From Roseinatronobacter monicus (lineage in GTDB: Bacteria; Pseudomonadota; Alphaproteobacteria; Rhodobacterales; Rhodobacteraceae), in assembly GCF_006716865.1 (NCBI RefSeq), contig NZ_VFPT01000002.1, positions 124,001 through 188,000 of the forward strand: a stretch of DNA of 64,000 nucleotides, in the 5' to 3' direction. A model generated the notes under the pieces. It searched no databases. It saw only the letters and a list, made by a program, of their open reading frames with translations, and was not told the DNA's origin. The translations under genes were made by a program, and so were the position numbers. This document shows, one piece after another, positions 7,421 to 45,455 of this stretch (position 1 is the first letter of the stretch; every line of letters begins with the position of its first letter).

Positions 7421-7438
7421 GACCAGACATTTCGACTC

Positions 7439-9595
7439 TCAAGTGATAAGTTTAAGTTGTTCTGCGCTTTGCCGGGGCGGCAGGCGCCTCAGGTGGGGCG
7501 GGCTCGCGCGGATCGCTTTAAGATCCTCGATCATTGTCGCGTCAGCAGTCACCAGCTTCACCGGTTTGCGGTCATGTTTAACCAGGCGGCTGCTTAGGCG
7601 GCCGTTGGCGACCCAATAATACAGGGTCGCTTGAGGCATGCCGATGGCTTCGGCTAATTCTCGGATTGTCCACTCGTCGGGTTCGCGCACAATCATCGCT
7701 GAGGCGCTGGGTTTTTTGCGCTGTGGTTTGGCGATGCCCGCCGCAACCAGGCGGTGGCGGACCATTTCGGGGGTATAGGTGTTACGACGCTTGGGGGGGA
7801 CAAAGCCTTCTTCGTTGAGAATATTGGCAATGCAGCGGCTACTGTGGCCAGCTTCGTAGAGTTCCTTCATGCGCGCAATCAGTGCCGGATAGCTGCTGAG
7901 CGCGGTGATCCGCGCGACAGGACGGATCACCTTGTGCATCGTTTGATTGCCGCCATGCCAATGACACGTGACCTCCACATGCTCGGTGTCATCAACCATC
8001 TTGATGATAACCCTTTCGAGCAGCAGCCGTACAATTTCCTGTCGTTCTCTTTGTGTGGTTGTTGCCGCCTGCCAAAGCGCGGGGAGATCTTGGGTAAGGG
8101 TACGGATCGCCTCCAGTTCAGTGCGGCTCGGTGCTTGCAGACGTTCGCGCTGGAAGCGGTCATAATCAACCATGAGGCGCGCTTGGCTCGCCAGCGCCTC
8201 TTCCCAACTCTTCTCGAGACTACGCGCAACCAGTCGGTTCTCTGGCTCGACGCTGGCATAACTCCGCCGGGCGCGATCAACCTCGAATTGGGCGCGCTCA
8301 AGACGCTGCTGCCATTGACGATCGAGAGATTTGCGTTCCGCTTCAAGGTCGCTGGCGACCGCAAGACTGATCTCGAGCGCGGCTGGTTCCAGCGATCGCA
8401 GGATAGCGCGCGACACAGCCTCATCAACCGGGGCCGCTTTAAGCGACTGACAGATTGGTTCTGCGTAGGCCATGTGCATGCCATTGCAGATGTAGCGCGC
8501 GACTTGACCATTGTTGTTATAGGTTGGCTGCATCCTCAAGCCGCACGCGCCACAAATCACCATGCCCGATAGCAAAGCGCTTCCAGCCCGGACCGGCCCC
8601 TGCGCGCTCGGCAGGTTGGCCCTAATCTGCGCTTGGATGCTCTCGAATTGCTCCAAGCTGATATAGGCCGGCAACCGGTCTGGCAGAAACACCTCGACAT
8701 TGTCCGGCGCCTTCACGCAGCGCCCGGTTCCAGGACGCCCCGGCTTCTGGCGCCGCCTGTCGACGGGCCGCGCACCCCAGGCATACACACCGGCATAAAT
8801 AGGATTGTTGAACAGGTTATGCAGCGTGGCTCGGCTTGGGCGGCGCCACTCAAGATCACCCTTGGTCGGGCCATCTTTCCTGCGTATCGGCATCTGTATA
8901 TTGTGCTCGTTCAGATACCGCAGCACACCTCCAACCGACCGCAGCCGCTCAAACAAATCAAAGATAAGACGGATGACGCCCTGGGCCTGTTCATCAGGTT
9001 CGAAGATGACCTCCCCCGACGGGCGCGCTACATAACCCGCTGGCAAACTCTTTGCGAGTTCGCCGCGCCGGGCCTTCGCACGTCGCCCCTCCAGCATTCT
9101 TGCCTTGATAATATGCAGTTCGGCCTCGCTCATTGTCCCCTTTAAGCCTAACAGGAGCCTATCGTTGAAATTCGATGGGTCGTAAACGCCATCGGCATCC
9201 GCAATCAATGTATCGAATAGGGAGCAAATCTCCAACAACTGGTGCCAGTCCCGGCACGAGCGCGCAAGCCGTGACATCTCGACCCCAAGGACCAATCCGA
9301 CACGACCCAGTCCGACTTCTGCTACCAGCCGCTGAAAGCCAAGCCGTCCCTCGATCGAGGCGCCCGAGCGTCCCAGATCATCGTCGACCACGACGATCGC
9401 TTCCCGCGGCCAGCCAAGTGCGAAAGCCCGGTCAACCAGAGCGTATTGCAGCCGTGTCGATTCCTGATTGCGCTCAACCTGCTGCAGCGTTGATTGGCGA
9501 ATATAAACGATCGCTTGGCGATCGCGATGCTGTCCGCAGACTTTCTCGGGTAAACTCTGGGCGCGCGGGACCATGATCGATTCTGACGTCATCAT
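7439..9595 (-). CDS. Large serine recombinase
   Basis: A 718-aa protein. Residues about 25-175 form a resolvase catalytic domain (IVYIRQSTLQQ with the nucleophilic Ser, DDDLGRSGAS, GVEMSRLARSCRDW). A recombinase domain with the insert-binding region follows (NLFNNPIYAGVYAWG), then a zinc ribbon-like segment (CGACGLRMQP...CNG...C) and a long coiled coil (about 430-530). At the C-terminus is a MerR-like helix-turn-helix (TIRELAEAIGMPQATLYYW). The start has AAGGAGAG before two ATGs. It overlaps the small gene upstream by about 120 bp. Such proteins excise or integrate DNA at att-like sites; no attachment site could be identified here. The last 20 residues or so may read past the original element end into junction DNA. 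Confidence 0.85.
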   Translation of the reverse strand: MMTSESIMVPRAQSLPEKVCGQHRDRQAIVYIRQSTLQQVERNQESTRLQYALVDRAFALGWPREAIVVVDDDLGRSGASIEGRLGFQRLVAEVGLGRVGLVLGVEMSRLARSCRDWHQLLEICSLFDTLIADADGVYDPSNFNDRLLLGLKGTMSEAELHIIKARMLEGRRAKARRGELAKSLPAGYVARPSGEVIFEPDEQAQGVIRLIFDLFERLRSVGGVLRYLNEHNIQMPIRRKDGPTKGDLEWRRPSRATLHNLFNNPIYAGVYAWGARPVDRRRQKPGRPGTGRCVKAPDNVEVFLPDRLPAYISLEQFESIQAQIRANLPSAQGPVRAGSALLSGMVICGACGLRMQPTYNNNGQVARYICNGMHMAYAEPICQSLKAAPVDEAVSRAILRSLEPAALEISLAVASDLEAERKSLDRQWQQRLERAQFEVDRARRSYASVEPENRLVARSLEKSWEEALASQARLMVDYDRFQRERLQAPSRTELEAIRTLTQDLPALWQAATTTQRERQEIVRLLLERVIIKMVDDTEHVEVTCHWHGGNQTMHKVIRPVARITALSSYPALIARMKELYEAGHSSRCIANILNEEGFVPPKRRNTYTPEMVRHRLVAAGIAKPQRKKPSASAMIVREPDEWTIRELAEAIGMPQATLYYWVANGRLSSRLVKHDRKPVKLVTADATMIEDLKAIRASPPHLRRLPPRQSAEQLKLIT

Positions 9596-15766: not shown

Positions 15767-16744
15767 ATGTTCAACATCACACCCTCACTCAAAGGCTCTG
15801 CAGCGGTGATAGCTACAGCAGCTATGGCGTTTGCACCTGCGCTCGCAAGCGCAAGCCCGCTGGGTAGCGATCCGATCCGCTTGGTCATTCCGTTCGGCCC
15901 CGGTGGCGGCAGCGACATTACGGCACGCGTATTGTCCGCGACTGCACCCGAGTTTTGTGGCCCGCGGATCGACGTGGTCAGCATGTCGGGTGCCGCAGGC
16001 CTTGAGGCCGTAAATTTTGTCCGTAATGCCCCTGCCAATGGGCACACGCTGCTCGTCTCGGATTATGGCCCTGTTGTAACATCAGGCTTTCTTGATGATG
16101 TAGATTGGAGCCACGATGACTGGCAACCTGTCATGAATTTCACGGAATGGCTGCCGACTGTTTACACACGCCCCGACCATCCGATCCAAACCATAGAGGA
16201 CTGGGTCGCGGCCGCCGAAGCTGATCCTGGTAGCATCACTTTCGGCCATGCCAATCCTATGGGGCTGGTGCATCTGCCGCTCATCCTGTTTGAAATGGAA
16301 ACCGGGCTGGAAAATATTCACGTACCAACCTCTGGCGGCGGCGAAACCCGCAGTCTGATCATGGGTGGTCACATCGACCTTGGCATGACACTGCCGCCGA
16401 GCATTGCATCAGAAGTCGCATCTGGAGAATTGACAGCCTTGGGGGTTTTCTCGGCAGAACGTTCGCCTGTCCTACCCGATACACGGACATTCCGCGAAGC
16501 CGGATATGATGTTGTGTTGCCAGCATGGCTGATGGTGATCGCTACTTCTGACGTCCCTGCGGAAACGGTCGAATACTTGCAGGACTGCTTCATGGAAGCC
16601 CTGGCATCGCCCACGGCGATCGCAATGAGCGATCGTGTCAACGCGGGTATCGAGCCTCTGAACGCGGCGGATTCGACAGCGCTTTATCAGGCGACGGTTG
16701 CCTCGATTGGTGACATCCTACGCAGCATGGGCGAGATCGATTAA
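15767..16744 (+). CDS. tctC: Tripartite tricarboxylate transporter, substrate-binding protein
   Basis: A 325-aa periplasmic protein with a Sec signal peptide (hydrophobic residues about 8-26, ending ALASA). It carries typical TctC/Bug motifs: RLVIPFGPGGGSDITAR early, then ARV..., KPGAAGLEA-like SGAAGLEAVNFVRNAPANGHTLL, and a C-terminal domain with PDTRTFREAGYDV. It captures a carboxylate, such as a tricarboxylate or aromatic acid, and delivers it to the TctA/TctB membrane complex encoded downstream. A terminator-like hairpin separates it from tctA. Confidence 0.92.
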   Translation: MFNITPSLKGSAAVIATAAMAFAPALASASPLGSDPIRLVIPFGPGGGSDITARVLSATAPEFCGPRIDVVSMSGAAGLEAVNFVRNAPANGHTLLVSDYGPVVTSGFLDDVDWSHDDWQPVMNFTEWLPTVYTRPDHPIQTIEDWVAAAEADPGSITFGHANPMGLVHLPLILFEMETGLENIHVPTSGGGETRSLIMGGHIDLGMTLPPSIASEVASGELTALGVFSAERSPVLPDTRTFREAGYDVVLPAWLMVIATSDVPAETVEYLQDCFMEALASPTAIAMSDRVNAGIEPLNAADSTALYQATVASIGDILRSMGEID

Positions 16745-16752
16745 ACTGCTCC

Positions 16753-16787
16753 GGCCTCCGCAAGTGGAAACGCGCGGGGGCCTTTTT
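16753..16787 (+). terminator. Hairpin with T-run between tctC and tctA
   Basis: GGCCTCCGC (16753-16761) pairs with GCGGGGGCC (16774-16782), with one G-T wobble, around a 12-nt loop, followed by TTTTT. This is a strong intrinsic-terminator shape. Lying inside the operon, it probably reduces read-through so that the binding protein outnumbers the permease. Confidence 0.75.
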
Positions 16788-16856
16788 CGATCCCAAACAT
16801 CGGCGGTTCCCGATCCGCCAGATTGAAAATTCAAAACAACCATTCAGGCGGTCCCA

Positions 16857-18377
16857 ATGATGCTGGAAGCCTTTGTTGATGCGCTTTACCTTGCCTTCAG
16901 CCCCGAAGTCATTCTGTATGTGGCCATCGGTGTTTTCATGGGGGTTACACTGGGTGCAATCCCCGGCCTGAGCGGCGACATGGCAATCGCCATCTTGCTG
17001 CCGATCGTATTTTTCCTTGAACCGGCTGCGGCACTTGGATTGCTGACGGGCATTTATAAGGGGGGGATGTTTGGCGGGTCGATTTCTGCAATCTCATTCG
17101 GGGTGCCGGGCACGCCCGGCTCTGCGGCAACGGCGATTGATGGCTATCAGGCCAAGCTGAAAGGTTACCCGAACAAAGCGCTGAATACGGCGCTTTATTC
17201 GTCGGTGATCGGCGACACCACAAGTGACTTTGTGCTTATCTTCCTAGCGCTGCCGCTGGCTATTGTTGCGCTCACATTCGGGCCGGTGGAATTCTTCGCG
17301 CTCTATGCTTTCTCGCTTTTGCTGATCTCGGCGCTGACCAAAGGCAAAGTGGCGAAAGGGGTGGCGATGGCCGCGCTCGGCATTCTGCTGGCCATGATCG
17401 GTCGCGACCCTATCGGGGGCTCGGTCCGGCTGACATTCGGCATCCCTGAACTGTCGGGTGGCCTTGCGCTGATCCCTGTGCTTGTCGGCATATTCGCGGT
17501 GTCAGAACTAATCATACAGTTGTCGAAGGCGTGGATGGAGCGGGTCCGCCGGATCGTTGATGAGACCAAACAACAGGCGCAATCACTGCTGGGCGATTAT
17601 GACGCCAGCAAAGACAAGTTGACCTTCGCCGAGTTCCGCGCCACGATGAAGGCCACATGGATTGGCACAACGATGGGCACGCTAATCGGGGCCCTGCCCG
17701 GCGCGGGGTCATCTCTGGCGGCGTTCATCAGCTATGGGCTTGCACAACGCTTTTCACGGCACCCTGGCGAGTTCGGAAAAGGATCGCTTGAAGGTGTCGC
17801 TGCTGCCGAGGCCGGCAATAGTGCGACTTCCGGCTCCACGCTCATTCCGCTTTTTGCCTTCGGCATTCCGGGCAGTGCTACTGCCGCGCTATTTGGGGCG
17901 GCTTTTATCTTGATGGGGATGACGCCCGGCCCTCGACTGATCTATGATCATACTGAGGTCATCTATGCGCTGTTCCTGATCCTGATCTATGCCAACATCA
18001 TCAATCTCGCGCTATCGCATTTCCTGCTGCCACTGTATTCCAAGATTGCCATGATCAAGTCGCGTATTCTGCTGCCCATTGTCTGCGTGCTAGCTATTCT
18101 GGGCACCTTCGCTGCAGGCAATTCGGTGATTGATGTCTGGGTGCTGCTGTTTGCCGGACTGCTAGGGGTTGTGTTGCGGGTCTATAATTTTCCGCTGGCG
18201 CCGCTGATTCTTGGTTTCATCGTCGCACCCGGAGCAGAGCGCGCCTTGCGTCAATCGCTATTGATCGGTCGGGGTGAATGGACACACTTGCTGTCGAGCC
18301 CAATTGCCATTGGCCTGTATGCGACCGCTGCGATCATGATCTTCACCTTTACCGTGGTTATGCGCGAGCGAAAGTAA
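16857..18377 (+). CDS. tctA: Tripartite tricarboxylate transporter, large permease subunit
   Basis: A 506-aa integral membrane protein of the usual TctA length with about 12 helices. Two signature repeats are present: GVTLGAIPGLSGDMAIAILL near residue 30 and GTTMGTLIGALPGAGSSLAA near residue 270. Substrate-channel segments GTPGSAATAIDGYQA and GIPGSATAALFGAAFILMG are also seen. It uses an ion gradient to import the substrate delivered by TctC. The small subunit gene follows after about 25 bp. Confidence 0.93.
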   Translation: MMLEAFVDALYLAFSPEVILYVAIGVFMGVTLGAIPGLSGDMAIAILLPIVFFLEPAAALGLLTGIYKGGMFGGSISAISFGVPGTPGSAATAIDGYQAKLKGYPNKALNTALYSSVIGDTTSDFVLIFLALPLAIVALTFGPVEFFALYAFSLLLISALTKGKVAKGVAMAALGILLAMIGRDPIGGSVRLTFGIPELSGGLALIPVLVGIFAVSELIIQLSKAWMERVRRIVDETKQQAQSLLGDYDASKDKLTFAEFRATMKATWIGTTMGTLIGALPGAGSSLAAFISYGLAQRFSRHPGEFGKGSLEGVAAAEAGNSATSGSTLIPLFAFGIPGSATAALFGAAFILMGMTPGPRLIYDHTEVIYALFLILIYANIINLALSHFLLPLYSKIAMIKSRILLPIVCVLAILGTFAAGNSVIDVWVLLFAGLLGVVLRVYNFPLAPLILGFIVAPGAERALRQSLLIGRGEWTHLLSSPIAIGLYATAAIMIFTFTVVMRERK

Positions 18378-18402
18378 CTTGTGTTCCGAAAGGGTGCCAA
18401 AG

Positions 18403-18882
18403 ATGAAGAATATCTTTTCAACTGCCTTTACCCGTCTGGACTTTTTCACTGGGCTGGTCACCATAATTATTGGCGTGGTTGGCCTGCTGGACATCACCTA
18501 CGGCAACTGGCGTCCGGGGCCCGGACTGGGGCCTCATGCCTTTCCGCAGCTTGCCTACATCACCCTGATCATTGCAGGTCTTGCAATCTGGATTGATGTG
18601 CTGCGCGGCAAATCTGATGACCCCCCGGAAAACCTGCGCGCGATTTTGCTGACGGGCGTGGGGTTGGTCGCAATAGGCATGGGTATGTTCTGGTTGATTG
18701 GAAAACTGGGATTGATCGTCAGCGTGGCCGCGACGCTGATCGGAGCGAGCTTTCTGCTGACGCGCCATCCTTTTCAGCATTGGCCCAGTACAATTGTGGT
18801 TCCGATCATTGCCACAGCAGTAATCTGGGTTCTGTTTGTTCAACTGATTAACATACCTCTGCCACGTGGATTGCTATTCTGA
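18403..18882 (+). CDS. tctB: Tripartite tricarboxylate transporter, small subunit
   Basis: A 159-aa protein with four hydrophobic helices (about residues 12-32, 45-62, 84-106 and 118-145) and the short GPGLGPHAFPQL motif typical of TctB. ATG 18403 with AAAGG upstream is preferred over 18379. Gene order C-A-B places it last. It is required for transport together with TctA; its exact role is not known. Confidence 0.85.
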   Translation: MKNIFSTAFTRLDFFTGLVTIIIGVVGLLDITYGNWRPGPGLGPHAFPQLAYITLIIAGLAIWIDVLRGKSDDPPENLRAILLTGVGLVAIGMGMFWLIGKLGLIVSVAATLIGASFLLTRHPFQHWPSTIVVPIIATAVIWVLFVQLINIPLPRGLLF

Positions 18883-19386: not shown

Positions 19387-20260
19387 TCAAAGCCGTATCA
19401 ACCCCATCGACAGCTTTCCGCGCTGGCGGCGCCGATAAAGCCCTGCGAGCACCATTATGAACAGCCCGATGAAGCCAAATGTCAGTATGGGATAGTGCTC
19501 TGCTGGAATTACAGGCCGCAACAGGAACATCATCACAGCGCACCAGCCAGCAAGCGATAATGTTTCGCCTATAGCGTTTCGCGTTAAACCTGAATCACCT
19601 AACTCTGCCTGAAATCTTCGATTTCAACGCGTTACGTGATACGTGATGTTTCAAGGTAAACGCGAAACGCTTTAAGAGCAACGTCCAGTGGACCCGCGGT
19701 GCGCGATGGCGTCGGGGCAAGCTGTAGGGGAACAGTGTGTTCACCCCTGCGCCGAACAGGATCAGGATCGTCCACAGGCCGCCATTTTGCGGTGTCGCGA
19801 CGGCCAGTCCGAAGCCGAAAGCGAAAATCGTGGGAATAAGAAAAACGCTCCGAAGTGCTTTGCGCACGCGCCTTTGCGCGACGATCACGGGCAGGTAGTG
19901 CAAAAGCCACGCTGCGGTGAGCAGTGCAAGAATACTAAAGCCTGGCCACCACAGACGCAGATACTCCAACAGCGGCAGCCCATTTCGCGGGGTCATGGAA
20001 AGGTTCCACGCCAGCAGCGCCAGAATGAACATGGCATGGCGGCGGGCCATGCGTGGGCCTTTGGGGTTGGCTGGGTTGAAATGTTGCTGCAAGGCAAGCG
20101 GCATGAACACGACATAGGCCAGCGCCATCGCAAACGCCTGATGCCGCCATTCGGGGACAAAACCCCAGTGCAAATAGACCAACGCCCAAGCCAGTGCCAT
20201 GAGCACAGGAAAGCCAAAGATTATGGCCAAAGCGATTGTAGCGCCGCGATCTGTGGTCAT
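19387..20260 (-). pseudogene. Membrane protein paralog 1, interrupted by a MITE
   Basis: The start at 20260 (MTTDRG) matches the start of paralog 2 (MTTDRD). The protein has about six hydrophobic helices, the motif GPRMARRHAM after helix 2 and FPYSLPRRHRAP late in the chain. After HWTLLL the frame enters a 101-bp insertion and soon stops (19595). Removing the insertion and one TA joins HWTLLL to GETLSLAGWCAVMMFLL... and continues to a stop at 19387, aligning with TLLIGEWMS of paralog 2 and ISIGEHLS of paralog 3. It is thus a recently broken gene of the same unknown family. Last gene of the leftward operon. Confidence 0.85.
19572..19672. mobile_element. 101-bp MITE flanked by TA duplication
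   Basis: The ends TAGCGTTTCGCGTTAAACCT (left) and AAGCGTTTCGCGTTTACCTT (right end, reverse complement) form inverted repeats of about 24 bp with few mismatches. TA dinucleotides flank both sides (19570-19571 and 19673-19674). There is no coding capacity. Structure and TA target fit a miniature element mobilised by an IS630/Tc1-type transposase. Insertion into a gene whose reading frame is restored by its removal defines both ends precisely. Confidence 0.85.
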
Positions 20261-20280
20261 GGGGTGCTTTCTGGCACGGG

Positions 20281-21066
20281 TCAAAAACGGCGCGTATAGG
20301 CGGGTGGCTTGTTGTTGTTTTTGCGCGCATGGACGAAAATCATCGCCCCGATCCCCGCTCCGATCACGGCCCCAATAACACTTGCGACAGGGTCGTGATC
20401 AGGCCCCAACGTGAGCGTGAATATAATGCTGAAAAACGCGGCCGTAGACATCCATTCTCCGATCAGCAAGGTCAGGTTTGCCAGTGCGCTCGCACCGTGT
20501 CTTCGGGCAAGTGCCATGGGGAAAATCACATTTTCCAACAGGCCGATCATGAACACCCATGCCCAGATCATTTCAGCCACAGACCAGCCGCTCATGACCC
20601 CGAAAAATGCAGCAAGGGCAAGCGATGCCCCGATCAGCATGCTGATCTCTTTGAACAACACACGGCGCATTCGGGGGTTTTTCCGAATACTGGGAAGGTA
20701 ACGCCACAGCCACACAGCCCCGCCAACAGCAATCCATAGCAGAACCAGCCACCAGATGCTTTCGCGATCCAGTGCCACAGCCACCGGCAGAAACCCCACG
20801 GCGCCCATGAACAGGGACAGAATCCCGAAAATCACCATGATATGACGTCGGGCCATGCGTGGGCCATAGGTGGATGCGGGCCAGTTATGTTGCATCAGTA
20901 GGCCGGGCATCAGCATGACGACAAGGACTGACAGCCAGAGAAAATCATCTGAACTGCCTGCTGCCGGAGAATCCAACCACCACAGAAAAGCCCCCAATCC
21001 TACGAAAAGAAATACTACAAAGGCGAGCACGGCAAACGAGAGGTGGGTATCGCGGTCGGTTGTCAT
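20281..21066 (-). CDS. Membrane protein paralog 2 (unknown function)
   Basis: A 261-aa protein starting MTTDRD at 21066. The upstream in-frame extension overlaps the previous gene and is not conserved in the paralogs. It has six hydrophobic helices, GPRMARRHIM following helix 2, FPMALARRHGASA before the penultimate helix, LLIGEWMS leading into helix 5, and a basic tail. It is clearly related over its full length to its two neighbours. No catalytic motif is visible; the conserved Arg/His clusters lie at cytoplasmic loops and could bind a ligand or partner. Part of the leftward operon, 34 bp after paralog 3. Confidence 0.75.
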   Translation of the reverse strand: MTTDRDTHLSFAVLAFVVFLFVGLGAFLWWLDSPAAGSSDDFLWLSVLVVMLMPGLLMQHNWPASTYGPRMARRHIMVIFGILSLFMGAVGFLPVAVALDRESIWWLVLLWIAVGGAVWLWRYLPSIRKNPRMRRVLFKEISMLIGASLALAAFFGVMSGWSVAEMIWAWVFMIGLLENVIFPMALARRHGASALANLTLLIGEWMSTAAFFSIIFTLTLGPDHDPVASVIGAVIGAGIGAMIFVHARKNNNKPPAYTRRF

Positions 21067-21100
21067 TTGTTTATATCCATCAATAAAATCCGCCTCAGGG

Positions 21101-21910
21101 CTAATGGCGATAGAATTTATGAGGCCGGTTCGGGGTCTGCCCCCGCCAATCCAACCATGCAAAGACAAGCGTCACCGCAGTCAATGCCCCTGCAATCCCG
21201 ATGGTCGAGATGACGAGATAGGCAATCTGCTGATCTGGATCGTCAGGGCGGCCAAACCCGCTTAGCACAAGAAAAGTCAGTAGCGCCGCGCCAAAGGACA
21301 AATGTTCGCCGATGCTGATGACCCCGCGTCCAAGTCGGATGGCCCCATGCCGGGGCAGCGTTTCGGGCAGCACGACAGTGCTGACCACGCCCAGACATAT
21401 CAACCATATCCAAAGGGCGTGCGCCGGCGTGGACTGCGCAATCAGCCAAAGCGGCACGGCCAAGAGCGAGGTGATTCCCACTCGAAGCGCGGCGCGGCGG
21501 CCCAAAGCGCGGCGGGCAGACGGGCGTATGTGGTTGACATGAAAAAGAAGTTCCCACAGGCTCATAGCCGCAATCACCCCAAGAAAGGGCAACCATTTCA
21601 GAAGCATCGTTGCAAGGTCATCATTGAGCTGCGGTTCGCCGGGCGCCAATAGCAGGGCCAGAATGCCTGCAAAGCTGATAAAGCGCCGCCGCATCTTGCG
21701 TGGGCCGTTCGGCACCGCACTGTTTCGCTCTTGCCACAACGCAGAGGGCGCAAGCCAGATCAACGCCAAGGCCATGACCAGTGCGGTGTGATAAGGTTCG
21801 CGCGGGGTGTCAGGCATGGCTAGCGCCACCACTTGCATCGCCCCGAGGAACAACGCGGGCAGCCCGGCCAGGAAAACCAGCGACCAGAGCGCATCACGGT
21901 TGGTTTTCAC
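21101..21910 (-). CDS. Membrane protein paralog 3 (unknown function)
   Basis: A 269-aa protein with six or seven hydrophobic helices. The start is GTG at 21910, overlapping the TGA of the DUF6404-like gene (CTGTGAAAA), which implies translational coupling. It shares with paralogs 1 and 2 the N-terminal (K/T)T(N/D)RD, a GPRKMRRRFISF loop after helix 2, an LPETLPRHGAI segment and ISIGEHLSFGAAL. Family unknown to me. Confidence 0.75.
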   Translation of the reverse strand: MKTNRDALWSLVFLAGLPALFLGAMQVVALAMPDTPREPYHTALVMALALIWLAPSALWQERNSAVPNGPRKMRRRFISFAGILALLLAPGEPQLNDDLATMLLKWLPFLGVIAAMSLWELLFHVNHIRPSARRALGRRAALRVGITSLLAVPLWLIAQSTPAHALWIWLICLGVVSTVVLPETLPRHGAIRLGRGVISIGEHLSFGAALLTFLVLSGFGRPDDPDQQIAYLVISTIGIAGALTAVTLVFAWLDWRGQTPNRPHKFYRH

Positions 21911-22284
21911 AGCGTGTCCCAGTCGCGCAAGCGGTGTTTGCGGCGGTCATAAAGCAGCGACAGGGCCAAGCCCAAGCCCATCACACTCCAAAAAATGCCA
22001 GACCTGACAAGATACTCCCACGGGACCCCGACGAATCCCGCCGTAACCCACGCTTCCCGCCAGGCCCACATCCACATCAAGGCGCCCCACCCGATGACGA
22101 AAAACAGCGCATATCCAAGGAACACGCGCATGCATGACCGATAATGCGGTGGTCGCAACCGCAGGCCCAGTCTGCGTAAGGCGTGATCCATATGGGGGTC
22201 ATAATTCGCGGACCACATGCCGGTTGCCCGTAGCTCTGCCAGTGCAGCGGCCAGTTTGCGGTCGAATTCCGCCTTGTCTGTCAT
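21907..22284 (-). CDS. DUF6404-like small membrane protein
   Basis: A 125-aa protein. The N-terminal soluble part (residues 1-45) contains ELRATGMWSANYDP and LRRLGLRLRPPHY. Two transmembrane helices follow (about 50-72 and 85-112), then a basic tail ending RLRDWDTL. The TGMW..NY.P...RLG...PPHY pattern corresponds to what I remember of DUF6404. First gene of the leftward operon, translationally coupled to paralog 3 and transcribed from the 102-bp region shared with the rightward operon. Function unknown. Confidence 0.7.
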   Translation of the reverse strand: MTDKAEFDRKLAAALAELRATGMWSANYDPHMDHALRRLGLRLRPPHYRSCMRVFLGYALFFVIGWGALMWMWAWREAWVTAGFVGVPWEYLVRSGIFWSVMGLGLALSLLYDRRKHRLRDWDTL

Positions 22285-22321
22285 CGAAATACCCGAACGA
22301 TCCTCAACACGCGCAATATGA

Positions 22322-22373
22322 CTTGCATATCAAGCATCGTGCAAGCATAAATTCATGCATGACATGAATTTAT
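22322..22373 (+). promoter_or_regulatory. Promoter with two inverted repeats between divergent operons
   Basis: A perfect 11-bp inverted repeat ATAAATTCATG / CATGAATTTAT with a 5-nt spacer lies at 22347-22373, just upstream of the start at 22387. A second one, CTTGCA...TGCAAG, spans 22322-22345. A plausible sigma70-type promoter, TTGCAT (22324) - 17 bp - ATAAAT (22347), has its -10 box inside the first palindrome, so a dimeric regulator bound there would block it. The HTH protein encoded at 22914 is the natural candidate. Confidence 0.6.
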
Positions 22374-22386
22374 ACTCGGGGGGCAG

Positions 22387-22914
22387 ATGCAACGCATTCA
22401 ACGCATGGCGACAGCGCTTTTGCCCGTGATGGGCGTGTTCTGTCTGTTTTACGTTATCTTCACCGGGCATGATGCGCTTGATCTGGCCATCCTGACGCCC
22501 GAGCGCTGGCTTGAAAGCCGATATGCCGATCCGCAAGCGCAAATCGCGCAAAGCACGCGGATCATCGCGGCCTTTGCCATGCTTAGCCCGGTCATCGCGG
22601 GGCTCGTGGCCGTGTTCATGGCGATCTATGTGCTTAACCTTGTGCGCCAAGGCGTGCTGTTTGATGAACGCATCGCGCAGGGGTTCCGCGTGGCCGGGGT
22701 GGCGACAGCCGTTTCGGGCATTCTGGGCATGGCGATATCGTGGCTCAGGCCCACCATCCTGTCTTGGCACAACCAGGGCGGCGCGCTTGCGCCCGATGTC
22801 TTCTTCCACTCTGACACGGCCGGGCTGATCGTCTGCGGGGCCATGTTCTGGCTGGTCGGCTGGATCATGCGCGAGGCAATACGTATTGCCGATGACAATG
22901 AGGGCTTTGTCTGA
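22387..22914 (+). CDS. DUF2975-like membrane protein
   Basis: A 175-aa protein with four hydrophobic helices (about 9-29, 58-84, 100-118, 142-162). The order of helices and the segment LVRQGVLFDERIAQGFRVAG, which resembles the G.(L/V)F......LR..G loop of DUF2975, support that assignment. It is followed with a TGATG overlap by a short HTH protein, the arrangement usual for DUF2975 genes, where the pair probably forms a membrane-linked regulatory module. First gene of the rightward operon. Confidence 0.7.
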   Translation: MQRIQRMATALLPVMGVFCLFYVIFTGHDALDLAILTPERWLESRYADPQAQIAQSTRIIAAFAMLSPVIAGLVAVFMAIYVLNLVRQGVLFDERIAQGFRVAGVATAVSGILGMAISWLRPTILSWHNQGGALAPDVFFHSDTAGLIVCGAMFWLVGWIMREAIRIADDNEGFV

Positions 22915-23123
22915 TGCAAATCATCGTCAGGCTGGATGTGATGCTGGCCAAACGCAAGATGAAATCCAAGGATCTGGCCGAGGTCATCGGCATCAGCACC
23001 CAAAACCTCAGCCTGCTGAAAACCGGTCAGGTGCGCGGCATCCGGTTTGAAACGCTGGCGAAGATTTGCGCCGCGCTCGACTGCCAGCCGGGCGACCTGC
23101 TGGAAGCCATGCCTGACGACTGA
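22914..23123 (+). CDS. Small XRE-type HTH regulator
   Basis: A 69-aa protein that is essentially one Cro/C1-type helix-turn-helix (KRKMKSKDLAEVIGISTQNLSLLKTGQ..., then RFETLAKICAALDCQPGDLLE). It overlaps the DUF2975-like gene by TGATG. Proteins of this short YozG type commonly accompany DUF2975 and are assumed to repress their own operon. The palindromes at 22322-22373 are likely targets. Confidence 0.85.
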   Translation: MQIIVRLDVMLAKRKMKSKDLAEVIGISTQNLSLLKTGQVRGIRFETLAKICAALDCQPGDLLEAMPDD

Positions 23124-23147
23124 TCAAAACGCCTGCGGGATTTCAGA

Positions 23148-24446
23148 ATGACCCTTTTCAAGAAAATGAGCTTTTTTGCGCTCGCGCTCTGCGCCATGGG
23201 GGCCGGTGCATGGTATCTGATGCAGCCCATTCGTGCCATCAGCTACCATATCACCCCCACCGACACCGCTGGCCGCGCCGAGGTGATCTTGCGTATCGCG
23301 CGCCCCTTTGACCCGGATGAGCAAGTGGGGCTGGCCCATTATGCCGAGCATCTGGCGTGGTATTCCGCCATTGGCGAGGAGGCGCGCGGCCCGGATCGGC
23401 ATTCGGGCGCATGGACCAGCCACCGTGCGGTTTTCTACAGCCTGAGCGGCAAGCCCGAAGACCTGCCCGAACTGACCGCCACACTGGCGCGGGTGTTTGA
23501 CCCGATCACGCTTGCCCCACGTTTTGCCGAAGAAGAGCGCGAGATCATCCATCGCGAGTATCAGATGTTCTTGGGGCAAAACGTAGGGGCGCGCGCGGAT
23601 GAAGCGCTGTCGGAAATTCTGCACGCGGGTACGCCGCTTGGCCCCTCGATCATCGGCACGCCTGAGCAGATCGGCGCGCTGGATTATGACGCCGCGCGCG
23701 CGTGGCACAGCGCCACACACCTGCCGGAAAACGCCGCGTTCATCTTTCGCGGCGATGTCGGGCGCTTGCAGGTCTGGTGCGTCTTGATGGGGTTGCAGCT
23801 TGATCTGACGGGCGATGCGCGCACACCGCCCGCCTATGACATGGGGCAGGACCTGGTGCATCTGGCCGAATTCCCCGACCCGAGCGCCGCCCCGCGCATG
23901 ATCTGGCGGCGGGTGGTGGCGTTGGACACGCCTGTGCCCTACGATCTGCTGGAAGCGCAGCTTGCTCACCTGCGCGCGATGCTCGACACCAATCTGCCCG
24001 GTGGGTTGGCGGGGCCATTGCGGTTTGATGCCCGGATTGCGCGCGAGTTCCGGCTTGATCTGACCGCGATTGATGAGCGCCATATTGAACTGCGCTTTCA
24101 GGCCAGCCCCGATACAGGCACCAGCCTGCCAGGGCTGCGCGCCGCGTTTGAGGCCGCACTGGACGAAATCGCCGCCAGCGGCATCCCTGTGCCGACCTAC
24201 ACGCGCGTCATGGGGCGGATGGACCGCTATTGGCCCAACTGGAGCGACCGCGACAACACCCGCCGCTGGATGGCCGATTACACAACCGACCGTGTGCTGG
24301 CGCTGCGCGATCCGGCATCCAAACGCGTGTTGCAAGAGATCCCGCCACACATCACCCGCGAAAGCGTGAACACTATTCTTGCCGCGCTGTCCCAAAACGG
24401 CCGCACGGCCATCGCCTTCATTGCCCCAAAGGAGTTTTTGGAATGA
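23148..24446 (+). CDS. M16-family metallopeptidase, catalytic-type subunit
   Basis: A 432-aa protein with one N-terminal hydrophobic anchor (about 5-22, FFALALCAMGAGAWYLM). It has the inverted zinc motif HYAEH (HxxEH) at about residue 64 and the downstream glutamate cluster EEEREIIHREYQ, the third zinc ligand of M16 peptidases. The length fits one two-domain M16 half. It likely works in the periplasm or at the inner-membrane surface, as a heterodimer with the next gene product, which lacks the zinc motif and overlaps by 4 bp (ATGA). Substrate unknown. Confidence 0.85.
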   Translation: MTLFKKMSFFALALCAMGAGAWYLMQPIRAISYHITPTDTAGRAEVILRIARPFDPDEQVGLAHYAEHLAWYSAIGEEARGPDRHSGAWTSHRAVFYSLSGKPEDLPELTATLARVFDPITLAPRFAEEEREIIHREYQMFLGQNVGARADEALSEILHAGTPLGPSIIGTPEQIGALDYDAARAWHSATHLPENAAFIFRGDVGRLQVWCVLMGLQLDLTGDARTPPAYDMGQDLVHLAEFPDPSAAPRMIWRRVVALDTPVPYDLLEAQLAHLRAMLDTNLPGGLAGPLRFDARIAREFRLDLTAIDERHIELRFQASPDTGTSLPGLRAAFEAALDEIAASGIPVPTYTRVMGRMDRYWPNWSDRDNTRRWMADYTTDRVLALRDPASKRVLQEIPPHITRESVNTILAALSQNGRTAIAFIAPKEFLE

Positions 24447-25801
24447 TCCGTTTCGCCCTTGCCCTGCCGCTTGTCCTTGGTCTGTCCTTTTGTGACGGCG
24501 ACAAGACACCGACTGCGTCCGACCAGATCAGCCCGAATGGTACGCCCTACCGCCTGATCCAGATGCCCGGCAATGAGTATGCCGCGATTCTGGCCGCGTG
24601 GCCCAATGACTGGGTCTGGGCCGAGGGGCGCAACCCGACCGCGTCTTATATCGGGGCACAGCTTATCCTAGCTGGCGGGGCCGAGGGCTATCCGGCGGGC
24701 GAGGTGGTCGAGCGTTTCGCGGATATGGATGCCAATGGCGAATTGCCCGTCAGTGCCGACCATCTTTACGGGATGCTTGCTGCCAAGAAAGGCGATTGGT
24801 TAGACGCGATTGCAATCGCCAATGCCCATCTGACACAGCCAAGTTTTGACCCCGACTGGTTCGACCGCATTCGCACAGGGTTCGCGCAGAACATCGCAGA
24901 GGCGCAATCGCAGCCGATGCATCAGGGCTTTGATGCGTTGCGTTGGGCGATTCTGGGCGATCACCCGCTCCGCGCCATGTTGTCGCTTGATGACGCAGAC
25001 GCCTTCGAAAACCTGTCGCTGGAGGATCTGCGCGCATGGCACAGTGCCACAGTCACGGGACGGCCCGTTTCTGTTGTAATCACCGGCGACATTGCGCCCG
25101 AGCAGGCAGGCGCAGGGCTTGACGCACTTCTCGCAGGGCTGCCGGAAGGGAGTTCGCAGGCGCGCGAGATCGTGCTGGACTATCGCCCGCGCCAGATATT
25201 GTTGCACCTGCCGGATGTGACCGAGGCACATCTGACCTTCATCGCCCCCCTGCCTGCCACGCGCCTCGGCGGGGATCTGGAAGACCTGATCCTTGCCACG
25301 GCGTTTGGGGGCGGTGAAGACAGCGTCCTATTTGCCGCCGTGCGCGACGGGCTGCGCGCCAGCTACAGCTTTAACGCCGGACTGGCCAACTACAATCGCG
25401 AAAACCGCTTTGTGATAATGACCGGTGCGTTGGAGGCCGCCAAACTGGCCGAGGCTGTCGATGTCGTGCGCGCAGCTTACACGGGATTTCGGGACAGTGG
25501 CCCGGATGGCGATATCAAGGACCGCGCCGCGCCCTTTCGCGGCGCATTCGAGCAAAGCCAAAATTATGTCGTGGACCAGGGCCATATGGAGCTGGAAACG
25601 ACTTTGGACGGGTTCGCCACCGGCCATTCTCTGACCATGCTGGAAATGGTTGACGCGCTGACCATAAGTGACCTGCGCAACCGCCTTCAGGACCACTGGC
25701 CACGGGCACAGGATTTCGTGGTTATCGCCGTGTCACCTGATGCAGATGCCTTGTCGGGCGCTTGTGTGATTACACGGCCCCAAGACGCGAAGGAGTGCTG
25801 A
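24443..25801 (+). CDS. M16-family protein, inactive-type partner
   Basis: A 452-aa protein starting at ATG 24443 with AAAGGAG upstream. It has a signal sequence (ALALPLVLGLSFC), with Cys17 as a possible but non-canonical lipidation site. The two M16-like domains lack HxxEH and retain the C-terminal-half features (LLHLPDVTEAHLTFIAP, FGGGEDSVLFAAVRDGLRASYSF, resembling the R/Y region of inactive subunits). This matches the partner subunit of bacterial M16 heterodimers, where it shapes the substrate cavity. Confidence 0.8.
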   Translation: MIRFALALPLVLGLSFCDGDKTPTASDQISPNGTPYRLIQMPGNEYAAILAAWPNDWVWAEGRNPTASYIGAQLILAGGAEGYPAGEVVERFADMDANGELPVSADHLYGMLAAKKGDWLDAIAIANAHLTQPSFDPDWFDRIRTGFAQNIAEAQSQPMHQGFDALRWAILGDHPLRAMLSLDDADAFENLSLEDLRAWHSATVTGRPVSVVITGDIAPEQAGAGLDALLAGLPEGSSQAREIVLDYRPRQILLHLPDVTEAHLTFIAPLPATRLGGDLEDLILATAFGGGEDSVLFAAVRDGLRASYSFNAGLANYNRENRFVIMTGALEAAKLAEAVDVVRAAYTGFRDSGPDGDIKDRAAPFRGAFEQSQNYVVDQGHMELETTLDGFATGHSLTMLEMVDALTISDLRNRLQDHWPRAQDFVVIAVSPDADALSGACVITRPQDAKEC

Positions 25802-25802
25802 G

Positions 25803-26642
25803 ATGATCCCGGCAAAAACCGGCGCTTTCATCTTCATCCGCGCATTGGGGCTGGTCTGGCAGTATCGCGGCTTTGCCCTGCGGGTCTGCCTGCCGATTTA
25901 TCTGCTGGCCTTCGCCATCGACATATGGATACGCCTGCAGGTCATGGGGGAAATCACGCGCGGCCCGCTGCAATGGCATGTCAATGATCCCTATGTCGGC
26001 GCGCCTGAAAACGGGGCATCGCTGTCGCAGATCCTGACAATCTGGGTCGTCTGGCTGTCGAGCCTGATCACAATCGCGATCCTGTGGCACCGGCATGTAC
26101 TGGGCGCGCATGGCGTGGGGCCAATCGCGCCATTGGGGCTGCGTCATCCGATCAGCTATCTGGGGAAGTTGGCAGGCGCTACCATTTTGGGGGTGTTGCC
26201 AGTGGTGCTGATCTTTGGATTCGCGGTCTCTATTCTCTCTGTCGATTTCGCCCAGCATCAGGATGATGCGCGCCTTCCGGTATCATGGCTGTTCTTTGGC
26301 GCAGCCATCAGCATCATCGCGGGCTGGGTCATCATGCGCCTCAGCCTGGCGCTACCGGAGGCCGCCATCGGGCAGAAAGGATCCATCTTCGACAGCTGGT
26401 TCGAAACCCGCCCGCTGGCAGGAGCGTTATGGGTCGCCGCAGCGTTCGAAAGCGGGCTGTTAACGGCGGTGGAGCTTTTAGGGGCAGGAGCAGCGCGCAT
26501 AGATGTCCGTCTGGCCTATCTGGTCGAAAACCTGACATGGTTCGTTCCGCTGATGGTTGGTATTGCCATTCTGACACTGCTCTATGAGCATTTGTATCAT
26601 GGTCGGTCCCTGCGTGGCACCAGTCTTTCGGGGGACACATGA
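25803..26642 (+). CDS. Polytopic membrane protein of unknown function
   Basis: A 279-aa protein beginning 2 bp after the M16 partner gene, hence operonic. About six hydrophobic segments are seen (19-38, 75-96, 121-147, 160-182, 205-228, 240-258). A conserved-looking motif SWFETRPLAGALWVAAA sits before the fifth. General appearance is like YIP1/YckC-type or DUF4013-type proteins, but I do not recognise the family. Tn3 copy A begins 14 bp after its stop, so any further operon genes have been displaced. Confidence 0.65.
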   Translation: MIPAKTGAFIFIRALGLVWQYRGFALRVCLPIYLLAFAIDIWIRLQVMGEITRGPLQWHVNDPYVGAPENGASLSQILTIWVVWLSSLITIAILWHRHVLGAHGVGPIAPLGLRHPISYLGKLAGATILGVLPVVLIFGFAVSILSVDFAQHQDDARLPVSWLFFGAAISIIAGWVIMRLSLALPEAAIGQKGSIFDSWFETRPLAGALWVAAAFESGLLTAVELLGAGAARIDVRLAYLVENLTWFVPLMVGIAILTLLYEHLYHGRSLRGTSLSGDT

Positions 26643-28455: not shown

Positions 28456-28457
28456 TA

Positions 28458-29639
28458 TACCAATCAGCATTGATCAGAACTCTTGAGCCCAGTCGCGGGT
28501 TCCAATGGAGGTGATTGTGTCGGGCATGCTGACCAATTTGTTCCAAGCCTTGCAGCAATGATCTACGATGTCTTCATAGGTTTCGAAGATGAGGTTTGAT
28601 AGCCAGTTGTCTCGCATGAATTGCCAGATGTTTTCGACTGGATTGAGTTCTGGGCATTTTGCGGGGATCGGGATGATGGTGATGTTGTCCGGAATGACCA
28701 GCTTGTCAGTCATGTGCCATGCGGCTTGATCCACGAGCACAGCCCCATGTGCTTTGGGTGCGACAGTTTGGGAGATTTCAGCAAGATGCAGGGCCATCGC
28801 TTCGGTATTGCACGCTGGCAGCACAAGACCTGCAGCTTTCCCGAGGGCTGGGCAAATCGCTCCAAAGATGTAGCTTGAACTCGTGCGCTGATCATGTGGG
28901 GCGGAAGGTCGCGTACCGCGCTTCGCCCATCGGCGCGTGATCTTGTTTTTCTGGCCGACACGCGCTTCATCTTGGAACCAGACTTCGATCACAGTGCCTT
29001 GCAGGAGCCGTGCGCGGAGCTTTGCTACTGCGGCTGCAAACCCTTTTTTTTAAAGTCCTCCAGTGCGGCTGTATCTTGCGCGTGATGGCGCGGGCGTGCT
29101 GTGAGTTTGACATAACCAAGCGCCCTGAGTTCCCGGCTTATCGACGTCTCGTGAAGTGAAATCCCAAATGTGTCTGCAATCCATTTCCTCAGATCACTCA
29201 GGCGCCAGCGGACGACCCCATGGACCGATAAGGTCGGACCGCTCTCAACAATTGCAGCAAGCGCCCTGCGCTGCTCATCGTTAAGCTTAGACTGCTGACC
29301 AGGAGCTTTGCCGTTGATCAAGCCGTCAGGCCCGCGGGCATTAAACCGCTCCACCCAGTCACGGACAATTTGTAGGCCAACACCACCAATCCGAGCAGCA
29401 TCGCTGCGCCGACCGCCATCATAGATCTCCGCCAGCGCCAAAAGCCTGCGGGCTTGGTTGGCATCCTTTGTCTTTCGCGCAAGTTCTCTCAACTTCATGC
29501 CGTCGTAGTCTGTCCGTAACGCGAGCGCTGCGCCCATAGAGAGGCCCTCCCCAGAAAATCTGACGCCATTGAGTCAGATCTTCATAGATTTGGGAATCCC
29601 AAAACCCTCAGAAGAGTCAGATTTCGCGAGACTTGGTAT
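28458..29639 (-). mobile_element. IS630-family element 2, tandem copy 1
   Basis: 1182 bp with ends TACCAATCAGC (28458) and ACTTGGTAT (29639). It is followed by a single TA and then an identical copy. Two overlapping transposase frames, both leftward. Confidence 0.9.
28474..29537 (-). CDS. IS630 transposase OrfA-OrfB (-1 frameshift fusion), tandem copy 1
   Basis: OrfA (29537-29025, 170 aa) carries the HTH domains (MKLRELARKTKDANQARRLLAL, GLQIVRDWVERFNARGP, ISLHETSISRELRALGY). OrfB (ending 28474) carries the DDE core: EVWFQDEARVGQKN, HGAVLVDQAAWH and KCPELNPVENIWQFMRDN. At 29044-29051 an A8 run followed by GGG lets ribosomes slip -1, so FKKKG is followed by FAAAVAKLRARLLQGTVIEVW and the two parts join. 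OrfB alone would start only at MIEVW within the core. Confidence 0.85.
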
Positions 29640-29641
29640 TA

Positions 29642-30823
29642 TACCAATCAGCATTGATCAGAACTCTTGAGCCCAGTCGCGGGTTCCAATGGAGGTGATT
29701 GTGTCGGGCATGCTGACCAATTTGTTCCAAGCCTTGCAGCAATGATCTACGATGTCTTCATAGGTTTCGAAGATGAGGTTTGATAGCCAGTTGTCTCGCA
29801 TGAATTGCCAGATGTTTTCGACTGGATTGAGTTCTGGGCATTTTGCGGGGATCGGGATGATGGTGATGTTGTCCGGAATGACCAGCTTGTCAGTCATGTG
29901 CCATGCGGCTTGATCCACGAGCACAGCCCCATGTGCTTTGGGTGCGACAGTTTGGGAGATTTCAGCAAGATGCAGGGCCATCGCTTCGGTATTGCACGCT
30001 GGCAGCACAAGACCTGCAGCTTTCCCGAGGGCTGGGCAAATCGCTCCAAAGATGTAGCTTGAACTCGTGCGCTGATCATGTGGGGCGGAAGGTCGCGTAC
30101 CGCGCTTCGCCCATCGGCGCGTGATCTTGTTTTTCTGGCCGACACGCGCTTCATCTTGGAACCAGACTTCGATCACAGTGCCTTGCAGGAGCCGTGCGCG
30201 GAGCTTTGCTACTGCGGCTGCAAACCCTTTTTTTTAAAGTCCTCCAGTGCGGCTGTATCTTGCGCGTGATGGCGCGGGCGTGCTGTGAGTTTGACATAAC
30301 CAAGCGCCCTGAGTTCCCGGCTTATCGACGTCTCGTGAAGTGAAATCCCAAATGTGTCTGCAATCCATTTCCTCAGATCACTCAGGCGCCAGCGGACGAC
30401 CCCATGGACCGATAAGGTCGGACCGCTCTCAACAATTGCAGCAAGCGCCCTGCGCTGCTCATCGTTAAGCTTAGACTGCTGACCAGGAGCTTTGCCGTTG
30501 ATCAAGCCGTCAGGCCCGCGGGCATTAAACCGCTCCACCCAGTCACGGACAATTTGTAGGCCAACACCACCAATCCGAGCAGCATCGCTGCGCCGACCGC
30601 CATCATAGATCTCCGCCAGCGCCAAAAGCCTGCGGGCTTGGTTGGCATCCTTTGTCTTTCGCGCAAGTTCTCTCAACTTCATGCCGTCGTAGTCTGTCCG
30701 TAACGCGAGCGCTGCGCCCATAGAGAGGCCCTCCCCAGAAAATCTGACGCCATTGAGTCAGATCTTCATAGATTTGGGAATCCCAAAACCCTCAGAAGAG
30801 TCAGATTTCGCGAGACTTGGTAT
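29642..30823 (-). mobile_element. IS630-family element 2, tandem copy 2
   Basis: Identical by eye to copy 1 and separated from it by one TA (29640-29641). Followed by TA at 30824-30825 and then the Tn3 spacer sequence AAACCTATTTACG. Repeat period 1184 bp. Confidence 0.9.
29658..30721 (-). CDS. IS630 transposase OrfA-OrfB (-1 frameshift fusion), tandem copy 2
   Basis: Same two-frame gene as in tandem copy 1 with OrfA 30721-30209 and OrfB ending 29658. The A8 slippery run is at 30228-30235. No residue difference from copies 1 or 3 is seen in the translations, so the duplication is recent. Confidence 0.85.
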
Positions 30824-44273: not shown

Positions 44274-45455
44274 TACCAAGTCTCGCGAAATCTGACTCTT
44301 CTGAGGGTTTTGGGATTCCCAAATCTATGAAGATCTGACTCAATGGCGTCAGATTTTCTGGGGAGGGCCTCTCTATGGGCGCAGCGCTCGCGTTACGGAC
44401 AGACTACGACGGCATGAAGTTGAGAGAACTTGCGCGAAAGACAAAGGATGCCAACCAAGCCCGCAGGCTTTTGGCGCTGGCGGAGATCTATGATGGCGGT
44501 CGGCGCAGCGATGCTGCTCGGATTGGTGGTGTTGGCCTACAAATTGTCCGTGACTGGGTGGAGCGGTTTAATGCCCGCGGGCCTGACGGCTTGATCAACG
44601 GCAAAGCTCCTGGTCAGCAGTCTAAGCTTAACGATGAGCAGCGCAGGGCGCTTGCTGCAATTGTTGAGAGCGGTCCGACCTTATCGGTCCATGGGGTCGT
44701 CCGCTGGCGCCTGAGTGATCTGAGGAAATGGATTGCAGACACATTTGGGATTTCACTTCACGAGACGTCGATAAGCCGGGAACTCAGGGCGCTTGGTTAT
44801 GTCAAACTCACAGCACGCCCGCGCCATCACGCGCAAGATACAGCCGCACTGGAGGACTTTAAAAAAAAGGGTTTGCAGCCGCAGTAGCAAAGCTCCGCGC
44901 ACGGCTCCTGCAAGGCACTGTGATCGAAGTCTGGTTCCAAGATGAAGCGCGTGTCGGCCAGAAAAACAAGATCACGCGCCGATGGGCGAAGCGCGGTACG
45001 CGACCTTCCGCCCCACATGATCAGCGCACGAGTTCAAGCTACATCTTTGGAGCGATTTGCCCAGCCCTCGGGAAAGCTGCAGGTCTTGTGCTGCCAGCGT
45101 GCAATACCGAAGCGATGGCCCTGCATCTTGCTGAAATCTCCCAAACTGTCGCACCCAAAGCACATGGGGCTGTGCTCGTGGATCAAGCCGCATGGCACAT
45201 GACTGACAAGCTGGTCATTCCGGACAACATCACCATCATCCCGATCCCCGCAAAATGCCCAGAACTCAATCCAGTCGAAAACATCTGGCAATTCATGCGA
45301 GACAACTGGCTATCAAACCTCATCTTCGAAACCTATGAAGACATCGTAGATCATTGCTGCAAGGCTTGGAACAAATTGGTCAGCATGCCCGACACAATCA
45401 CCTCCATTGGAACCCGCGACTGGGCTCAAGAGTTCTGATCAATGCTGATTGGTAT
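44274..45455 (+). mobile_element. IS630-family element 2, third copy
   Basis: Reverse-complement copy of the tandem elements at 28458-30823, same 1182-bp length, flanked by TA (44272-44273 and 45456-45457). A single insertion, giving the reference for both ends. Confidence 0.92.
44375..45438 (+). CDS. IS630 transposase OrfA-OrfB (-1 frameshift fusion), third copy
   Basis: OrfA 44375-44887 (HTH part) and OrfB ending 45438 (DDE part). A8 at 44861-44868 followed by GGG. A slip by -1 re-reads G44869 and continues GFAAAVAKL...VIEVWFQ. No coding difference from the tandem copies is apparent. Confidence 0.88.

Follow-up and report, generated by a model that had tools for sequence, protein, structure and literature searches.

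A 64,000-nucleotide stretch of DNA from Roseinatronobacter monicus (the window, bases 124001-188000 of the 244-kb contig NZ_VFPT01000002.1, in a genome of 4.7 Mb) contains a divergent locus in which a pair of M16-type proteases is encoded opposite a set of paralogous membrane proteins. Relatives of this protease pair are often found next to the gene for a small glycine-rich peptide, together with genes of the kinds used for acylation and type I export. The most probable explanation, to which we give a probability of roughly 0.36, is that the locus derives from such a peptide cluster, has no precursor gene, and now serves immunity or resistance under the control of an autoregulated arm. This proposal is based on the gene content of the locus, the residues of the proteases, an operator-like repeat that is unique in the genome, the alternative arms joined to the same protease genes within the genus, and the constraint on the genes.

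Organization of the locus

The leftward arm reads DUF6404, B1, B2, B3, and the rightward arm reads DUF2975, helix-turn-helix (HTH) regulator, M16a, M16b and a membrane protein (MP). All these open reading frames (ORFs) had been named in a first-pass annotation of the same DNA, and all are present at the place and on the strand that it gave. The features are as follows, G002 and G035 being two other genomes of the genus.

19595..20260, minus strand: B3, third membrane paralog, C-terminus lost; homologous to B1 and B2, 74% identical to G002 B3 over the 198 codons preceding an insertion
19570..19673 (approximate), no strand: insertion (about 104 bp, inverted ends imperfect) that breaks B3; seen when the DNA is compared with that of G002, whose copy is uninterrupted
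20281..21066, minus strand: B2, second membrane paralog, 261 residues; from the ORF list, homologous to B1 and B3, 60% identical to G002 B2
21101..21910, minus strand: B1, first membrane paralog, 269 residues, GTG start; 63% identical to G002 B1, family alignments A5 and A6
21907..22284, minus strand: DUF6404 protein (PF19942), 125 residues, two hydrophobic segments; 49.5% identical to the G002 copy
22347..22373, no strand: probable operator (predicted), ATAAATTCATG-CATGA-CATGAATTTAT, in the divergent control region; lone site in the genome
22387..22914, plus strand: DUF2975 membrane protein (PF11188), 175 residues; present in 4 of 37 genus genomes
22914..23123, plus strand: Cro/C1-type HTH regulator (PF13443), 69 residues; 98.6% identical to G002 and to G035
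23148..24446, plus strand: M16a, active M16 half (PF00675), N-terminal hydrophobic segment, HYAEH at residue 64; best match of its profile (A2) is the 3ami/3amj active subunit
24443..25801, plus strand: M16b, inactive M16 half (PF05193), N-terminal hydrophobic segment, no HxxEH; best match of its profile (A3) is the 3amj inactive subunit
25803..26642, plus strand: MP, polytopic membrane protein adjoining M16b; no Pfam or NCBIfam match at E <= 1

Spacing is short in both arms. DUF6404 and B1 overlap by 4 bp, and 34 and 20 bp separate B1 from B2 and B2 from B3; on the other side DUF2975 and HTH overlap by 1 bp, M16a lies 24 bp after HTH, M16a and M16b overlap by 4 bp, and MP follows after 1 bp. 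The Pfam cut-offs are exceeded by DUF6404 (95.6 bits against 27.6), DUF2975 (28.9 against 27), the adjacent HTH_26 (87.8 against 22), Peptidase_M16 in M16a (27.5 against 22.3) and M16_C in M16b (51 against 23), and none is reached by B1-B3 or MP. A protein search with MP gave 16 matches at E <= 0.001, and weak relatives occur in 71 other genomes of 394 from the family; MP may consequently belong to a widespread family as a divergent member, which carries little functional information.

The M16 pair and its relatives in peptide clusters

The description of the two M16 proteins as an active and an inactive half agrees with their residues, as M16a has a downstream EEE..REY in addition to HYAEH and M16b has no HxxEH. 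This motif is kept in 23 of 24 aligned M16a rows, the remaining one being cut off at its N-terminus, and a single M16b of 25 (L026) has an H..EH, near its C-terminus. Given these residues and the profile matches, M16a and M16b would act as a heterodimer. Furthermore, 12 of the 15 M16b rows from outside the genus with a visible start carry a lipobox-like motif (LAAC, LAGC or similar), and the seven genus rows have LSFC; such starts suggest a periplasmic, membrane-tethered pair.

Contigs were scanned with four M16b queries and two short peptide patterns, a search that was not exhaustive and gave 22 loci; with G021, G353 and the window the set comprises 25. A peptide ORF and an HlyC-family gene adjoin M16b in ten of them (L025, L027, L028, L031, L037, L038, L039, L040, L044 and L055), and these clusters are hosted by Rhodobacterales and Halomonadaceae. 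They consist of an M3-like gene with an HExxH motif, a gene for an HlyC-family acyltransferase, optionally a cupin hydroxylase gene, the glycine-rich peptide and the M16 pair, often accompanied by a small membrane ORF, a type I ABC exporter and an HlyD adaptor. The M3-like gene was matched in nine of the ten peptide loci, the cupin gene in three (L025, L040 and, as a fragment, L055), an ABC exporter at E < 1e-60 in nine of the 25 (L027, L028, L031, L035, L036, L037, L039, L040 and L055) and HlyD in seven. The M3-like gene of L055 is fused to HlyC: one 516-residue ORF (6661-8208) holds both domains, HlyC at residues 378-503, a hint that the two may act together. A shortened M3-like gene alone is kept in L024 and L032, and no cluster gene is present in five loci with visible flanks (the window, L030 with a short right flank, L033, L042 and L056); in L023 the pair follows the end of an HTH gene, and contig ends lie too close for a call in seven more (L026, L029, L034, L035, L036, L041 and L043).

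The peptides, 92-115 residues long, share an 18-residue start, M-x7-(M/F)(T/N/S)(D/A)L-x4-SF, followed by a glycine-rich run. Nine of the ten went into their profile (A4), so that the L055 peptide (E 5e-11) is its sole independent match. All six HlyC proteins submitted to Pfam exceeded the cut-off, as did that of L037, and HlyC would be expected to modify the peptide. The L027 exporter resembles HlyB-type proteins at 460 bits, under the cut-offs, and the adaptor of the same locus is over that of type_I_hlyD. Support for the M3-like assignment is weak (at most 17.9 bits against 27; 20 bits to PepF), although the HExxH stretch is plain. No description of the HlyC/glycine-rich peptide cluster or of DUF6404 was found in the searched literature, whose coverage leaves out most subscription journals.

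No ORF with the leader motif is present in the window, and its genome gave no match to A4 at E <= 0.1 and none in a search for the M3-like gene. The window is likewise free of HlyC, M3-like, cupin and HlyD matches and of ABC matches at E < 1e-60, other ABC-type genes lying elsewhere in it (by eye, for example 39458-40624), and the export genes of the peptide cluster are missing from the locus. These results bear on the idea that the pair is a maturation protease, a leader peptidase for some other exported peptide encoded elsewhere, with the DUF2975/HTH and membrane proteins regulating or aiding export. In the full clusters the pair is indeed placed between the peptide gene and the exporter, and M16 peptidases are proposed as leader peptidases for cacaoidin and lexapeptide (PMC8068269). 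However, a precursor of the family in the genome and a cluster exporter in the locus are both lacking, other kinds of precursor not having been searched for, and we consider a maturation role unlikely here. A pair that is intact yet has no precursor fits an immunity protease, since an obligate leader peptidase would have no substrate.

Alternative arms within the genus

Gene contexts were taken from one genome per species, many of them fragmented. Among the 37 genus genomes B proteins are found in 3, DUF2975 in 4, M16b in 7 and the M3-like gene in 3. The peptide gene is convincing in 2 of the 37 and reaches E <= 0.1 with A4 in 5, the weak matches in G003, G004 and G023 (E 0.01-0.07) not being counted as precursors. 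The seven genomes with M16b divide by what accompanies it: the M3-like gene in G010, G018 and G021, DUF2975 in G000, G002 and G353, never both, and the seventh, G026, has a short contig. All seven genus rows group together in the M16b tree (100/100), and inside this group the peptide-linked L025 and L055 are intermixed with the DUF2975/HTH-linked window, L023 and L056. In these small numbers, there is one protease core, the more widely distributed part of the locus, with two alternative upstream arms, and DUF6404-B is an add-on to the DUF2975/HTH arm.

The first-pass annotation had suggested one function for the whole locus as a single system. A fixed, conserved system does not hold, the DUF6404/paralog arm being on the M16b contig in 1 of 25 M16b loci, that of the window. 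When its own check for homologs without the other half was applied, M16b loci proved mostly to lack the paralog arm, but the paralogs always face DUF2975/HTH (three of three B-bearing genomes among the 37: the window, L016 for G002 and L010 for G035). The G035 assembly is 71% complete; its contig ends 53 bp past HTH, and a search of the genome for M16b was negative. In G353, IS3-like genes (by eye) are followed by DUF2975-HTH-M16a-M16b, and the 19-kb stretch showed neither DUF6404 nor B nor MP.

The G002 assembly (87% complete, 8% contamination) carries the DUF6404/paralog arm on a contig that reaches the first 214 codons' worth of the M16a ORF, with M16b on another contig. These contigs, C512 (L016: DUF6404-B1-Bx, DUF2975-HTH-M16a start) and C299 (L023: M16a-M16b-MP, preceded by the last part of the HTH gene), share 586 bp of M16a at 92.7% identity, and a third, C146 (L015), opens within the last part of a B1 gene and continues with B2 and B3. 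The imperfect overlap and the B1 end on C146 indicate that two strains are seemingly mixed, both of the DUF2975/HTH or B type and both having B1, B3 and one gene in the second slot. G002 therefore does not show a four-copy B array, and because of the mixture copy-number change offers no evidence for immunity.

The shared control region

The control region postulated earlier for both arms is real. The divergent start codons are separated by 102 bp, which hold one perfect inverted repeat of 11+5+11 bp (22347-22373). Allowing up to 3 mismatches, no second site of this kind exists in the genome (reversed-pattern control, 0). G002 retains 9-bp arms of the repeat at the same place, and G035 and G353 retain parts of it as judged by eye. 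A sigma-70 scan of the region gave no promoter-like site. The repeat is probably the binding site of the HTH protein.

The region to the right of the locus is rich in mobile DNA. About 35.9 kb (26657-62530) are flanked by inverted copies (660 bp, 98% identical) of a sequence with a resolvase gene. From 62530 on, the window continues with DNA that in L023 and R. thiooxidans (L024) is located closer to the M16-MP operon, and mobile DNA therefore seems to have landed to the right of the locus. Three IS630-like copies (family assigned by eye; ends approximate), 99.9-100% identical, are at 28457-29600, 29635-30784 and 44312-45455. Immediately left of the B array, 15767-18882 holds tripartite tricarboxylate transporter-like genes (TctA/TctB by eye). 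Plasmid records searched with M16b and B2 gave no match, which is uninformative on the plasmid status of the contig.

These surroundings raise the possibility that the genes are neighbours with no common job, the M16 pair and MP serving envelope protein clean-up, DUF2975/HTH being a local stress or selfish module, and DUF6404 and the paralogs being passengers in a transposon-rich region. The mobile DNA to the right would be expected in that case, as would the asymmetric association of the arms and the wide spread of weak MP relatives compared with M16a relatives, which were found in 5 of 294 other genomes (a smaller draw than the MP search). Unrelated neighbours would not, however, be expected to have in common a unique operator-like repeat, nor DUF2975/HTH to face the paralogs in every paralog-bearing genome of the genus, and this explanation seems to us somewhat doubtful.

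The B paralogs

B1, B2 and B3 are homologous, as had been claimed (28-32% identity, BLASTP E 5e-14 to 3e-11), and at E <= 0.001 B1 matches the three B proteins only within the whole genome. Of the motifs attributed to them, GPRxxRR and P..LxR(R)H occur in all three and (I/L)GE in B1 and B2; the last is missing from the window B3 because the insertion breaks the gene, which is also the reason that the left edge drawn previously, 19387, lies past an in-frame stop at 19595. The insertion ends in overlapping 36-nt inverted arms, 78% complementary, and is possibly a small transposon-like repeat; no further long copy is present elsewhere in the window.

Profile searches answer positively the question, raised in the first-pass annotation, of whether the paralogs form one unnamed family. 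Out of 5.8 billion proteins, a search with B2 retrieved 3, the window's own included, and a profile of nine B proteins found 14 matches among the best 8000 candidates scored, including the window B2 and, judged by length, probably B1, most of them on contigs of 1-8 kb. For B3, Pyr4-TMTC (18.1 bits) and DUF3562 (16.5 bits) were rejected, as both are below cut-off and neither is listed for B1 or B2.

The second slot of the array has two alleles, B2 and Bx (G035 reads B1-Bx-B3), which are alike in the C-terminal part (103 of 125 residues) and not in the N-terminal part (41 of 111). A mosaic slot of this kind suits recognition or immunity genes without proving them. In protein P0003 of Roseinatronobacter sp. 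NSM, annotated as DUF6404 family, residues 1-72 of DUF6404 are joined in frame to residues 114-261 of B2 (74% and 68% identity), which looks like the product of a deletion within a DUF6404-B array.

Constraint on the genes

Ratios of nonsynonymous to synonymous substitution rates (dN/dS) were calculated between the window and G002, with G002 rows from C512 (DUF6404, B1, DUF2975, HTH), C146 (B2, B3) and C299 (M16a, M16b, MP). They were 0.36 for DUF6404, 0.25 for B1, 0.23 for B2, 0.35 for B3 (the part before the insertion), 0.28 for DUF2975, 0.035 for HTH, 0.34 for M16a, 0.15 for M16b and 0.19 for MP, those of DUF6404, B1 and B2 being rough since dS is high (1.1-1.4). This range, 0.035 to 0.36, indicates that all nine are real genes under constraint. 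The left-arm proteins, with the G002 identities listed above, diverge faster, and the slower-changing ones include M16b (85%), MP (84%) and HTH, the latter 98.6-100% identical among the window, G002 and G035. For M16b, dN/dS is 0.15-0.20 among the window, G002 and G353, where the precursor was not found, and 0.135 between two precursor-bearing genomes. Between G002 and G035 the ratio for DUF6404 is 0.41 (dS 1.5).

Constraint also bears on whether the locus is a decaying remnant of a peptide cluster, kept by chance. Decay would account for the broken B3, for the M3-like gene of R. thiooxidans (L024), shortened and with an internal stop beside the M16 pair, and for the deletion-like DUF6404-B2 fusion of strain NSM. 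In six genus genomes, however, M16a and M16b have no internal stop and dN/dS values of 0.12-0.34, HxxEH is retained, and the HTH protein has hardly changed; we regard simple decay as improbable.

A model for the locus

In the model that we favour, immunity in a derivative that lacks the precursor, the core would be an M16 zinc protease in two parts, located in the cell envelope and from a family often serving HlyC-modified glycine-rich peptide clusters. The peptide-making arm upstream of M16a would have been replaced by an autoregulated arm of an HTH repressor and its DUF2975 membrane partner, with DUF6404 and the mosaic membrane-protein array read in the opposite direction from the same operator. 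When the peptide of a relative, or a similar insult, reaches the membrane, the DUF2975 protein would free HTH from the single operator and both arms would be expressed; the M16 pair would then cut the incoming peptide in the periplasm, destroying or processing it, and the paralogs, DUF6404 and MP would protect or sense at the inner membrane. Envelope peptide processing, suggested at first for the whole locus, was thus a fair guess in that the M16 relatives are found in peptide export clusters, although not as one fixed system.

Several points weigh against this model. The peptide has no known activity, so that the word bacteriocin would be a guess. Searches of Pfam, NCBIfam and PADLOC-DB showed no resemblance of the paralogs and DUF6404 to any known immunity protein, and the full clusters have, as candidate immunity genes, small ORFs for membrane proteins of about 50-95 residues, unlike the paralogs. 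B3 is broken, and the G002-G035 ratios of B1 (0.69, dS 0.11) and B3 (0.68, dS 0.07), at low dS, fit weak constraint equally with diversification. M16a has dN/dS values of 0.26-0.34 among the precursor-less window, G002 and G353 against 0.22 between two precursor-bearing genomes, and the pair is possibly slightly relaxed where the precursor is absent. Finally, DUF6404 has unrelated neighbours elsewhere: in 9 of 13 places other than its own (about 1.5 kb each side) no B, M16, DUF2975 or MP neighbour was found at E 0.01, the best B profile value being 0.029 (L066). DUF6404 was accordingly dropped as a functional guide. Anti-phage defence was also rejected: in PADLOC-DB, eight of the nine proteins had no match at E <= 0.1, and HTH had 14 generic matches, the best at 3.3e-5.

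More tentatively than the model itself, the relatives could represent exported glycine-rich peptides of a new class, acylated by HlyC and accompanied by an M3-like protein, optionally a cupin hydroxylase, and an M16 heterodimer dedicated to them; the window would be their non-producing counterpart, an autoregulated resistance locus whose mosaic, genus-specific membrane-protein array provides strain-specific immunity. If this is true, a paired M16 protease is tied to exported ribosomal peptides of a new kind, and the two parties to a contest are both visible, producers and non-producing resisters swapping modules at one protease core. Since a single genus has the pair both with the precursor and without it, the role of the pair in maturation or in immunity can be tested.

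Comparison with known systems

Among the closest systems are the zinc peptidase subunits of 3amj, from Sphingomonas; M16a is like the active and M16b like the inactive subunit, both distantly (51 and 33 bits). There is also a likeness to YfmF and YfmH (NF047422 and NF047421), the window M16b scoring 26 bits against YfmF and the L027 M16a 23 bits against YfmH, far under the cut-offs of 285 and 250. The HlyC-HlyB-HlyD type I secretion system resembles the HlyC-family, ABC and HlyD genes that surround relatives of the M16 pair and are absent from the window locus, but the likely cargo of the relatives is a glycine-rich peptide of 92-115 residues and not an RTX protein. Pairs of DUF2975 and short HTH proteins are of the YoaS/YozG type; the same families are adjacent here, with a 1-bp overlap, and are placed upstream of an M16 operon. 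The literature searches gave no function for such pairs.

PqqF and PqqG form a heterodimer. As at this locus the protease is of the M16 type, and theirs acts on a small ribosomal precursor (PMC2294125); in contrast, no pyrroloquinoline quinone (PQQ) family is listed for M16a or M16b and no PQQ gene is among the genes of the locus, the genome not having been searched for such genes. Further counterparts are the lanthidin clusters of Streptomyces (PMC8068269). They differ from the window, which has no precursor, and from its relatives, whose peptide family is another. The lexapeptide cluster encodes an inactive and an active M16 protein, LxmP1 and LxmP2, for which joint action on the leader as a heterodimer has been suggested, and in cacaoidin both M16 domains are contained in one protein, Cao15 (PMC8068269); like the relatives of the window pair, they combine an active and an inactive M16 half within a ribosomal peptide cluster.

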